Of a stretch of DNA of 64,000 nt, positions 19,001 through 23,920 are shown piece by piece. This stretch comes from Aurantiochytrium sp. KH105 (taxonomy: Eukaryota; Sar; Bigyra; Thraustochytrida; Thraustochytriidae). The translations under genes and the position numbers were made by a program. The stretch is from contig BGKB01000043.1 in the NCBI GenBank assembly GCA_003116975.1, forward strand, positions 62,001 through 126,000. Direction: 5' to 3'. The notes under the pieces were generated by a model. It was not told the DNA's origin. It ran no database searches and saw only the letters and a program-made list of their open reading frames with translations. The first letter of the stretch is position 1. Every line of letters begins with the position of its first letter.

Positions 19001-19196
19001 ATTTAGTAAGATTTTTACCGTCCCGTTCCTCCAATTCCTTGCTTCGTCTTGTCGTATTTTGTAGGCCTTCACCTGTTCGTGCGTTTTGCACAATCGCGGT
19101 TGCGGCCCGTGTGAGCGCGTGCCGCACGTGCCCCCCCCCCTCCCCTCCCGCGCCGCCTGTGTTTGCCTGGCCCGTGTCGCGTTGTGGGCTGGTGAC

Positions 19197-19338
19197 ATGT
19201 TTCCGAGCGTGACACGTTTGCGGAGTGTTGACGCCGCGCACAATCAGGTCACCGCAACAATCGTGTCACGCTCGAAAACAAGTGACACGCTCGAAAACAA
19301 GTGACACGCTCGAAAACAAGTGACACGCTCGAAAACAT
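19197..19338 (+). repeat. 19-bp iteron-like array with one inverted copy
   Basis: Four direct 19-bp units start at 19263, 19282, 19301 and 19320 (GTGACACGCTCGAAAACAA; the first has GTGTCAC, the last ends in CAT). An inverted copy matching 17 of 19 positions lies at 19197-19215, about 47 bp away. Each junction forms CAAGTGACAC, so the array also contains three CAAGTG elements at 19-bp spacing. It lies ~390 bp upstream of the Z1-like gene and ~260 bp past the SDHA stop. Confidence 0.9.
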
Positions 19339-19511
19339 GTCACGGTCCAGGCAAGACAGGCGGGCGACGTGCAGCACGGGCATGCGAGCTGGCCAGCCGC
19401 ACCTGCCTAGCCCGTCCGGACCATGCGCAGCCATCTGGCGTCCACCTAGTTCTCCTCGCTCTCGACAAGCTCCTACTCCTTTCGCTCGCGCTCTCAGACC
19501 GCTCTAAAATC

Positions 19512-19518
19512 TATATAA
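19512..19518 (+). promoter_or_regulatory. TATA-like box of the Z1-like gene
   Basis: TATATAA occurs in otherwise GC-rich sequence, 174 bp downstream of the iteron array and 209 bp before the ATG. The assignment is by position only. Confidence 0.4.
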
Positions 19519-19726
19519 TCGCTAGGAGGTCCTACCACACCTTAGTGAAGGCAAAGAAGAGGTGGGTCGCGCGACGGGCCAAGGGATCTCAGATGCAGAC
19601 CCGCAACTCCAAGCAAAACCCAAACGCAGAAAGCAAGCACACCTGCCTTCTCAAGCATCCACAAGCAACACCGCAAGCAATACCGCAAGCAATACCGCAA
19701 GCGCAAGTAACACCCAAGGGAGCAAG

Positions 19727-22603
19727 ATGAACGCCTTTGTGGACACCTTCAAGTTTCTTGCGAAAGACTACCTCAAAAAGAATGAGGAGGGCCTTAACAT
19801 GCTTCGCGTCATTTCGCGCGCTGTACGGAGCGATCCCGACAAGGTCGAATTCTTCAAGACTGCAGGAGGGACCTTGGCTGCTCTCTCTTCTGCTCTCGTT
19901 GGGCTTCACGAGATGAACAAGCTTCACGAGGTCGACAAGATGCTCGACGAGTTCGAAGGCGCAATGTACACCCGCGACTCGAAGCGTCTTCGCACGCTTG
20001 AACCGATGTCCGCGGCCTCGTCTTCGAACCTAGCCGAGAGCAGCGGCGCCTCGGCCGAGCCCTTTCGCGCGGACATCCCTATGGCGGAGTCGAACAGCGC
20101 GCCAGAGCCTGTTCCAGAGGAGCAAGAGCCCTCTATCGCGGCCGAGACCCCACGCTCTGCAAGCGACTTTGACGATGCTTCCACTGTCGCGAGTGATTCC
20201 GACGAAGATGACGAGCTTCTGGCTAGCGAGAGCGATGACGAGGATATCGACCCAGAGCTCGGCAGCGTCAGCGAGGCCTTCGAAGGCACCTACTTTGGGC
20301 AGCTGCCGTGGACCAATGCTGCGCAATCCGCAATCACGCTAGGCGAGCCCGAATGGATCGAGTGGGTCCAGACCATCAGCCGGATGGGCAAGCTTCTCGA
20401 GGCGCCGAAGACGGTCGAGGCCGCCATCAATCTTCGTCTCGCCTGCAAGCTCATGCAGGACGACTTTGAGGCCCAGGAGCTTGTCGACATGAATCAGCCG
20501 GTCTTTGAGGAGTTCTGGAAACGCGGCCGCGCGGTGTGCTCGTGCATCATGCAAGGCGGGAAGACTCGACGAGCAATTTTTTATCGTGGTCTCGTACATG
20601 CGGGGGTGCACAACAAGCACGCGGTCGTCCTCGCGAACGGAATGGGCGTTGCCTACAACGACCTGCTTTCCTCCATGAAAGATCTCAATGAAGACTACGT
20701 CAAAAAGGTCCCCAAGAAGCTTCGCGAGAAGAATAGATACCTTCCGACCGAGGAACTTTTCCTCGGCACGAGGCTCAACCAAAAGGATCACTTCAGGAGA
20801 TTCGAAGATCGCCAGAGTGGACAGGTGCACTTCAACATTCGTCTTTCGAGTGTGGCGAATCTCAGAACGCTCTCGGCAGCATTCAGAGGCCAGCTCGAAT
20901 TCAACTCTGAAAACACGCATCTTCTTCTCGATGAGTCGCACGAGGCGATGGGAAGGCGTCTCTTTTCTACGCACGTACGCAGCGAGTTGGCCGAATGGAA
21001 AGACGTCACGCTTGTGACGGCCACCCCGCAAGCGCAGTTCATTGCGGAAGACCTGCTCGGAAGCAAGTTTCGCTTGGTGAACATCGTTCCCCGACCCGGG
21101 TACTACTTGTACGGACCGAAGGAGGAAAACCCCAGTCAAGACAGCGAGGACGGCAAGGTCCTGGTCGTCAAGTATGAGCCGACGGACGGAATGCAAAATT
21201 CTGATACGGGTTCGAGTGCAAGTCAAACATTTGTTCCTTTTCCACGTGAATTTTTTCCACGCAGCGTGCCAGATGAGGAGATCACAGCACTTGGCAAGAT
21301 TTGCAGGCGGAAGCACTCCTTCTTCTGCATCGTTCTGAACAATCATGATGGACAAAATCCTAACGAGGGGGGTAGGTCCGTCAATGTTGGCCATGGCGTT
21401 ATCGCCAAATGGGTTATGCAGCAGGCGGTGTCACAGAGAATACAGTTCAAGGAACCGGGGGTTCGGGCCTCGGTCGTCACTTACACGGTGTTCCAGCATT
21501 CTCGGGTCTCGAGTGAGTTCAGTAGGCCGCGACTCTTCTTCAACAAAGAGTTTTTGAAAGCGCTCGCACTCATCAGATTACCAGGCGTCGACAACCTTGT
21601 CTCGAGCATTTTTACGGAGAAGCATACTCGCTCGAATGAACGTGTGCTCGTCACGAAAAAGGTGTACAAAGCCCTCACAGACTTCTTCAAGGGCGTGGTG
21701 CCGCAAGCTGTCGAGGTCTACAACGGGAAACCTCTCAACGATGAAAGCGTCTTCTCTCGCTACAGGACGACCTTGGACAGCGGTAAGGTGCTCACAACGT
21801 ACTCACTTCAGCTCCCGCGGCTAGAAATTAAAGCGGTGCTTAGCATTATTCGTTATGTGCACGAGACTAGGTTTTCCAAGAGCAAATACAAGTCCTACAA
21901 GTCGGCCCCGTTGCAGCTTGCTGTCGTCGGCGGTACGCTCCTTAAACAGAGTGTCAACGTCGAGTCCAAGTGTCGCGAACTTCAGTCTACGCACCTCATG
22001 TACATGCGCAAACCTGGTGAGCGTTTTGATCTTACACGTCTTCTGCAAAAGCTTGGTCGCGTCGATCATGGTCACACCCAAAGCTCCTTTTACAGGAGCG
22101 CCTTTCCAGGCAAAAAGAAGGTGGATGAACGTCGGCCGACTGTCGTGATGAACAGAAAGTACATCAATCTTGTGCTAAACTCGTCGCGTATGCTGCGGGA
22201 AGCAGCGGAGAGGGGTTCTGACGCGCTCATCACATTCTTTCGCAACGTTTGGATGCTGTCCCTGGAGCAGGCAAAAAAGCGAGCGACTATTATGAGCTGT
22301 GCATGCAGAGAGCTCGAGGAAACTGAGGCGGAATACTACGAATGGGTGAGGGACATGAACGAGCTCAGTGCCTGGATTCTGAACGAGTCCAATGTTCCCA
22401 ACGTGACTCATCAGGACGCTACAGACATCGCCCAAGCGATCAAGGAACAATTCACTGTTGCGGGCCAGAATCCCGACATGAGTCGTCAAGGCCTTATCGA
22501 CGTTTTCGACTACGGGGTTGATGCCTCTCCTCTTCAGCGAAAGGTGCACAGCTTTTTGGGAAGGGCTCCGGCAATTCCGGCTCGTTTTCTGACATTCCCT
22601 TAG
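19727..22603 (+). CDS. SF2 helicase-like ATPase resembling Z1-domain proteins
   Basis: The frame gives 958 residues from the ATG at 19727; upstream in-frame codons are low-complexity repeats. Residues ~90-185 are Ser/Glu/Asp-rich and disordered. A P-loop-like CSCIMQGGKTRRAIFYR has GKT at 278-280. DESH at 402-405 follows THLLL, a Walker B box. TATP at 431-434 corresponds to helicase motif III. Near 735-783 comes LAVVGGTLLKQSVNVES, then FDLTRLLQKLGRVDHGH. This last block parallels the Z1 family pattern 'GG..LSRG.T.EG ... DTL.QMGRW.GYR', and the P-loop block parallels the 'VQSGKT' entry of the same proteins. Z1 ATPases are known mainly from prokaryotic MORC-linked defence operons and some viruses. 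No partner gene lies nearby. Family assignment is by motif order only. Codon use is mixed, unlike SDHA next door. Confidence 0.75.
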   Translation: MNAFVDTFKFLAKDYLKKNEEGLNMLRVISRAVRSDPDKVEFFKTAGGTLAALSSALVGLHEMNKLHEVDKMLDEFEGAMYTRDSKRLRTLEPMSAASSSNLAESSGASAEPFRADIPMAESNSAPEPVPEEQEPSIAAETPRSASDFDDASTVASDSDEDDELLASESDDEDIDPELGSVSEAFEGTYFGQLPWTNAAQSAITLGEPEWIEWVQTISRMGKLLEAPKTVEAAINLRLACKLMQDDFEAQELVDMNQPVFEEFWKRGRAVCSCIMQGGKTRRAIFYRGLVHAGVHNKHAVVLANGMGVAYNDLLSSMKDLNEDYVKKVPKKLREKNRYLPTEELFLGTRLNQKDHFRRFEDRQSGQVHFNIRLSSVANLRTLSAAFRGQLEFNSENTHLLLDESHEAMGRRLFSTHVRSELAEWKDVTLVTATPQAQFIAEDLLGSKFRLVNIVPRPGYYLYGPKEENPSQDSEDGKVLVVKYEPTDGMQNSDTGSSASQTFVPFPREFFPRSVPDEEITALGKICRRKHSFFCIVLNNHDGQNPNEGGRSVNVGHGVIAKWVMQQAVSQRIQFKEPGVRASVVTYTVFQHSRVSSEFSRPRLFFNKEFLKALALIRLPGVDNLVSSIFTEKHTRSNERVLVTKKVYKALTDFFKGVVPQAVEVYNGKPLNDESVFSRYRTTLDSGKVLTTYSLQLPRLEIKAVLSIIRYVHETRFSKSKYKSYKSAPLQLAVVGGTLLKQSVNVESKCRELQSTHLMYMRKPGERFDLTRLLQKLGRVDHGHTQSSFYRSAFPGKKKVDERRPTVVMNRKYINLVLNSSRMLREAAERGSDALITFFRNVWMLSLEQAKKRATIMSCACRELEETEAEYYEWVRDMNELSAWILNESNVPNVTHQDATDIAQAIKEQFTVAGQNPDMSRQGLIDVFDYGVDASPLQRKVHSFLGRAPAIPARFLTFP

Positions 22604-23146
22604 GCTCTCATCCTTTCAAGTAAAAGATAAAAGAGGAAGAACATTCAGCTTTCGCGTTCCTAACCTGTTATATTCAACTTGTCAAATACCTCTCATCAGA
22701 ACACGACGAAGCGATCAAGGACTGAATGAACTTACGCCAGTCAATCGTTGGCCAGGGCCTCTGCACGTGTGATCCATTTTGCATCTGCAGCCGACGTTCT
22801 ACTTTAGCTCTTTGTCTTTTCTTTTCTTTTATTCGACGTACTGCCATCTTTTCGGGCGCAGCGTTATCGTGGCGGAAGCAAATTTGCTTCAAGGACTCAT
22901 CTGGGAAGGGTGGCATTGGTAGGTAAGTAGTGAAGAAGTTTGTTATGTATAAGACCGAGCAAGGCAGACAAAAACTGCACAAGGAAAAGGCAGGTCCGCA
23001 AAGGGTGTCTGGCTGCTTCAGAACAGGCCTCTCGTGGCGCAAGAACCGGCGATGGAGAATCGGTCGCTTGGCGCGCCCGAGTCGAAAAGAAACCGACAAT
23101 GGGGCCCTGGACCTTGGGTTGGGTTTTTAAGGGGGGGGAGGAGTAT
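22604..23146. other. Convergent 3' region
   Basis: The 3' flanks of the Z1-like gene (+) and the small membrane-protein gene (-). A pyrimidine stretch sits near 22800-22835 and a G8 run near 23131. No iteron copy or terminal inverted repeat matching the array at 19.2 kb was found here. Confidence 0.5.
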
Positions 23147-23920
23147 TTACAGAAAGACGGGGTCCTCAAACAGAACGGTTGTCTTGGGCGCGGCGCCAGT
23201 CGCTGAGCGGGACTTGGAGAGCCCCGAAGCAGATGCGCCGACGCGCGGGCCTTCGCCAATCATCTCGGCGTCGTTGTGCGCTTGGAGCGCAAGCATGTGC
23301 GAGCGCGTCCGCTCCAGGTCCTCAGTTGCGCGCTCATCCTCTTCATCATAGCCGGTGCGGGCGTCGCCAAAGATGAGCTGATTAATGAGGCCGTGTTGGG
23401 CGTGCGCCGTGCGCTCCTCGTGACTGCCCTTGCTTGGCACGGAGAGACACTGGATAAGGGTCTCGAGACGCTTGTCAAACATGCGGCATTGCGCCTTGAG
23501 GAGCTCGAGATCGTCGACGACATCAAGCTTGCGCCATGCGTTGAACCACATTTTGGCATGTGCGTCCATGCTGTTCTGGATGCGCGTCAGTGTGATGGTA
23601 ATCGTCTCCATCACATCGCGCACGTTGCTCACGCAGACGTGAATAAAGTCCTCGCTCGTGCTGCCGGCGAGCTCGACCTCGTCACTTTCGACGGCCTCGA
23701 GCAGAGACCGCACCGTCTTGAATTTGGCCTCCACATCGAGCTCCATCAAAATGAATTGCACGCGTCCGACAGACTCGTGGTTCTTGGCGAGAAGCGCGAT
23801 TGCTGTATTGGCCGCAGCTTCGACGGCTTTGTACAGCATCACTCGCGTGAGCTGGTACGCGAGCGACACGCTCACGGCGCTCACCGAGGCCACTGTCACG
23901 ATCGCTGTCGCGGCAGCCAT
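23147..23920 (-). CDS. Small protein with N-terminal membrane segment, unknown
   Basis: 257 residues from an ATG. Residues 1-45 are hydrophobic and alanine/valine-rich (one membrane anchor or signal, followed by an amphipathic alanine-rich helix). Residues 50-150 look helical with regular Leu/Met/Val spacing (VRSLLEAVESDEVEL, VRDVMETITITLTRIQ). The tail from ~190 is charged, then Gly/Ser/Ala-rich and disordered, ending in FEDPVFL. I do not recognise a family. Coding is supported by amino-acid composition and the clean ATG context. Confidence 0.65.
   Translation of the reverse strand: MAAATAIVTVASVSAVSVSLAYQLTRVMLYKAVEAAANTAIALLAKNHESVGRVQFILMELDVEAKFKTVRSLLEAVESDEVELAGSTSEDFIHVCVSNVRDVMETITITLTRIQNSMDAHAKMWFNAWRKLDVVDDLELLKAQCRMFDKRLETLIQCLSVPSKGSHEERTAHAQHGLINQLIFGDARTGYDEEDERATEDLERTRSHMLALQAHNDAEMIGEGPRVGASASGLSKSRSATGAAPKTTVLFEDPVFL

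Follow-up and report, generated by a model that had tools for sequence, protein, structure and literature searches.

Superfamily 2 (SF2) helicase-like ATPases usually carry two arginines in motif VI, in the pattern QxxGRxxR. ResIII-type SF2 motors, known from type III restriction (PF04851), SNF2-type motors (PF00176) and N.CglI-type proteins (domain layout of N.CglI in PMC4267653) are the systems compared here with gene A, a 958-codon open reading frame (ORF) from Aurantiochytrium sp. KH105. Gene A lies in a 64,000-nucleotide stretch (G000:C43:62001-126000, hereafter the window) of an assembly of 76 Mb in 367 contigs, and it resembles the ResIII-type motors in having a DExH motif II followed by a TATP-type motif III. 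We hold with moderate confidence that it belongs to a chromosomal family encoding a divergent, SF2-like ATPase of the DExH type, with the mechanism and cis-elements proposed below. From its ATG the frame runs for 958 codons without a stop, and it stays open further 5' with no other ATG. The gene and its motifs are as follows.

19727..22603, plus strand: gene A, 958 codons in a single open frame (ORF reading; n = 8 intact copies; dN/dS)
20552..20566, plus strand: Walker A-like QGGKT, residues 276-280, invariant in 8/8 copies
20930..20941, plus strand: DExH motif II, DESH, residues 402-405, invariant in 8/8 copies
21017..21028, plus strand: motif III-like TATP, residues 431-434, invariant in 8/8 copies
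21929..21967, plus strand: motif V-like GGTLLKQSVNVES, residues 735-747 (sequence comparison, 8 copies)
22046..22072, plus strand: motif VI-like QKLGRVDHG, residues 774-782, pattern Q-x-x-G-R-x-x-H, invariant in 8/8 copies

The Walker A, DExH/D, S/TAT and QxxGR elements keep the SF2 order and all four are identical in every copy, which bears out the original prediction that QGGKT, DESH, TATP and a GG... block follow one another as in an SF2 ATPase. In the motif V-like block, G735 and T737-S747 are invariant in 8/8 copies, and residue 736 changes from G to S in gene Bb and to N in gene C. The P-loop stands 126 residues from motif II, II and III are 28 apart, and 305-356 residues lie between III and V.

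The genome itself holds eight family copies, with 13 matching tblastn pieces (for large families such counts are lower bounds), and every copy is open over its full length of 958-1011 codons. By long-range comparison the copies pair as haplotypes at 89-96% DNA identity across several kb, giving four genes per haplotype, and all 4 loci are filled in both. Locus A (contigs C43 and C46) adjoins SDHA; locus B (C217 and C39) carries two genes, Ba, whose sequence is close to that of A, and Bb, which lies on the opposite strand; locus C is on C62 and C52. Relative to gene A, protein identity is 94-96% for A2, Ba1 and Ba2 and 51-54% for Bb and C. Searching again with the C protein as query (E up to 10) added a single new piece, of 43 residues at E 0.86. 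Gene A had been described as standing alone beside SDHA; the adjacency is right and the solitude is not.

The family is under purifying selection. The ratio of nonsynonymous to synonymous substitution rates (dN/dS; NG86, own script, 11 pairs) is 0.19-0.30 in the eight pairs that compare alleles or A/Ba copies with each other, and 0.17-0.22 in three deep pairs (Bb-C, A-Bb and A-C), whose dS of 0.94-2.3 is near silent-site saturation. Low values across four genes argue for a retained cellular function. GC content at third codon positions is 0.61-0.68 in the eight copies, inside the 0.57-0.83 of 15 neighbouring ORFs including SDHA.

Three of the four genes are preceded by clusters of GTGACAC sites, which are rare elsewhere in the genome. 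In the window the upstream features are the following.

19192..19343, no strand assigned: GTGACA/TGTCAC site cluster (sequence, repeat search)
19512..19518, plus strand: TATA-like box TATATAA (sequence only)
19595..19607, plus strand: leader word GCAGACCCGCAAC (upstream comparison)

About 3.9 tandem 19-bp units, GTGACACGCTCGAAAACAA, occupy 19263-19337, with further GTGACA cores leftward. Within 600 bp upstream of the ATG, GTGACAC/GTGTCAC occurs 5 times in A1, 3 in A2, 7 in Ba1, 4 in Ba2, 5 in Bb1, 6 in Bb2 and once each in C1 and C2, against 21 occurrences in 189,200 bp of surrounding stretches (0.067 per 600 bp). The corresponding Poisson values, about 1e-8 for five sites and 0.06 for one, are optimistic because A with Ba, alleles and tandem units are not independent and array units can multiply in tandem; only A, Bb and, weakly, C count as independent evidence. 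The same or a near-identical leader word lies about 110-145 bp 5' of the ATG in A2, Ba1, Bb and C and is absent from Ba2; a leader word near GCA[AG]ACCCGCAAC stands before A1, A2 (one mismatch), Ba1, Bb and C (E 0.004-0.06). Bb and C also share AAATCGTGACAC upstream (blastn-short E 0.24). An exact 18-mer of the shared upstream element has five matches genome-wide, all at the family (control 0), and the paired pattern GTGACACN{9,14}GTGACAC has 13 (reversed control 7), eight of them preceding A1, Ba1, Ba2, Bb1 and Bb2. As a DNA query, the Bb upstream region matches its own two alleles only. Between Bb and A, which are near silent-site saturation, the core is kept and the spacers are not, as expected of protein-binding sites, and we infer that the clusters are promoter elements through which a regulator co-regulates the family genes. 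Paired GTGACAC sites also occur at C133:81304-81346 (two overlapping matches, making three units in a row), C11:612310, C80:12814 and C234:26452, on contigs for which protein searches found no family gene.

In profile comparison the family core scores highest with the SNF2 set (hhalign score 36.8, E 0.0019; 47 columns, probability 14.5%), followed by the ResIII set (26.9; 31 columns, 2.2%) and the DEAD set (24.0; 11 columns, 0.8%), and in each case 0/40 column shuffles scored as high. ResIII (PF04851) matches the trimmed N-lobe of Bb at E 0.0044. Several results weigh against an SF2-like ATPase family with shared regulatory sites. The hhalign matches are short (11-47 columns) and of low probability (0.8-14.5%), and HMMER scores on the SF2 sets overlap those from shuffled proteins. 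All curated families stay below their cut-offs (ResIII 17.4 versus 22.5 bits, for the trimmed Bb piece only), A and C as trimmed lobes give no curated-family match, and the whole protein matches ResIII in 1/8 members, at 0.03. The family alignment is shallow, with an effective number of sequences (Neff) of 1.5. AlphaFold runs with 8 rows each gave a mean predicted local distance difference test (pLDDT) score of 43.2 at full length and 36.4 for the core, too low to read a fold. Overall, the original observation holds in part and its interpretation finds partial support. The second arginine of motif VI is replaced by H in 8/8 copies (QKLGRVDHG), and the RVDHGH ending is divergent, as had been noted. 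Upstream, the sites counted within arrays are not independent and flatter the Poisson values, gene C has one heptamer (P about 0.06), and 5/13 paired-pattern matches fall elsewhere.

Two further parts of the protein enter the proposed mechanism.

19727..19999, plus strand: predicted all-helical N-terminal region, residues 1-91 (AlphaFold, low confidence overall; block pLDDT 53-77 for residues 1-80 and 40 for residues 81-90)
20114..20260, plus strand: acidic linker, probably disordered, residues ~130-178 (sequence; pLDDT <50)

Judging from the motifs, the family protein would be an ATPase and a motor. ATP bound at QGGKT/DESH, together with the QKLGR arginine, would close two RecA-like lobes on a nucleic acid strand, lobe one comprising QGGKT/DESH/TATP and lobe two the GG...QKLGR block, and hydrolysis would then move the protein along the nucleic acid or remodel it. 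Remodelling may be its task more than processive unwinding, because the second motif VI arginine is missing. Partners could be recruited through the helical N-terminus and the acidic linker. A regulated response gene would be consistent with the multiplicity, divergence and shared cis-sites; a part in dealing with foreign or aberrant nucleic acid is the least certain step and is put forward tentatively, as doubtful in itself, and nucleic-acid surveillance as the process is a guess.

Loci A and B share more than the gene.

19235..23220, no strand assigned: ~4 kb common to locus B (gene Ba), ORF and flanks, 94-96% identity at aligned letters

Its right edge falls about 74 bp within a minus-strand ORF, 23147-23920 (257 codons, no Pfam match), whose last ~74 bp are thus common to locus B alongside gene A. 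If this ORF is a real gene, the cut suggests duplication from A to B. By eye and with a repeat finder, no terminal repeats or target-site duplication were seen at the segment edges. Of 71 sites informative for A1, A2, Ba1 and Ba2, 54 support the pairs A1-Ba1 and A2-Ba2, 8 support grouping by locus, and the remaining 9 support the third arrangement. The A/Ba copies thus appear more alike within a haplotype (as assembled contigs) than within a locus, of which exchange between the two loci inside each haplotype lineage would be the plain reading. Ba and Bb are 14 kb apart on C217 and 6 kb on C39. The extra ~8.2 kb between the two genes, which only one haplotype carries (C217:33118-41372 versus C39:377503-377529), shows no clear target-site duplication by eye and holds a 614-codon ORF matching HSDR_N_2, a type I restriction R N-terminus (E 4.4e-5; 24.0 bits versus a cut-off of 25).

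The surroundings are those of an ordinary eukaryotic chromosome. A Pfam scan of 10 neighbouring proteins (five near gene A, five at locus B, none at locus C) identified SDHA, a clathrin-adaptor medium subunit, a methyltransferase-domain protein, a polycystin channel, VPS11, NAGLU and a sulfotransferase-like protein (27.1 bits, cut-off 27); 2/10 had no match and 1/10 a sub-threshold one. The methyltransferase-domain protein is encoded on the opposite strand, 2.6 kb downstream of gene A, and its Pfam matches are not to a DNA methyltransferase. No recombinase was among these 10 proteins.

That gene A serves a mobile element or minimal selfish replicon as its replication helicase, with the upstream repeats as an iteron-like binding site for the ORF, would account for a repeated-site cluster followed by one ORF at each of A, Ba and Bb, for a 4-kb unit of array and ORF shared by two loci with its left junction inside the array, and for a conserved repeat core with varying spacers. 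However, such a replicon sits poorly with only four loci, all occupied in both haplotypes, with edges at which terminal repeats and target-site duplication were not seen, with a copied piece that, like a segmental duplication, takes in the end of an adjacent ORF, and with the lack of a recombinase among the scanned neighbours at A and B; we regard it as improbable. Still further from expectation, and given very little credence, is that array and ORF form one unit in which the SF2-like protein would recognise its own array, a minimal eukaryotic replicon or self-regulated, copy-spreading unit without a transposase, built around a previously undescribed SF2 family.

Ancient capture of the gene from a large, protist-infecting DNA virus, with later host retention and duplication, seems rather unlikely. 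The strong divergence from cellular families would suit it, and a separate 1520-codon frame matching PF02399 suggests that virus-like helicase genes may occur in this genome; yet composition is ordinary, PF02399 gives no match to the gene A family, and protein, profile and motif scans confirmed no relative in viral contigs (near-identical words being needed).

Herpes-type origin-binding SF2 helicases (PF02399) were compared solely for a resemblance around motif VI, and the profile matches no family member. Its one match in the genome falls at C92:257908-258300 (minus strand; E 3.7e-12, over cut-off), in the separate 1520-codon frame, which could mark a virus-like element. SNF2-type motors give the best of the profile comparisons, in the motif II-III region, but PF00176 matches 0/8 family members and the hhalign match spans 47 columns only. 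Against nine ResIII-type proteins, the II-III distance of 28 compares with a median of 25 (range 24-43) and the P-loop to II distance of 126 with a median of 94 (89-141); unlike those motors, the family has a long III-V region, scores below the family cut-off, and no nuclease domain was found. The N.CglI-type Pfam profile matches 0/8 members (E up to 10) and nothing in the genome (E up to 1), with a positive Corynebacterium glutamicum control. From N.CglI-type proteins the family differs in V-VI spacing, in motif VI and in its II-III distance of 28 versus 36-48 (5-95%), whereas it shares with them the QxGKT P-loop, here QGGKT, the motif order, and a P-loop to motif II distance inside their 116-150 (5-95%).
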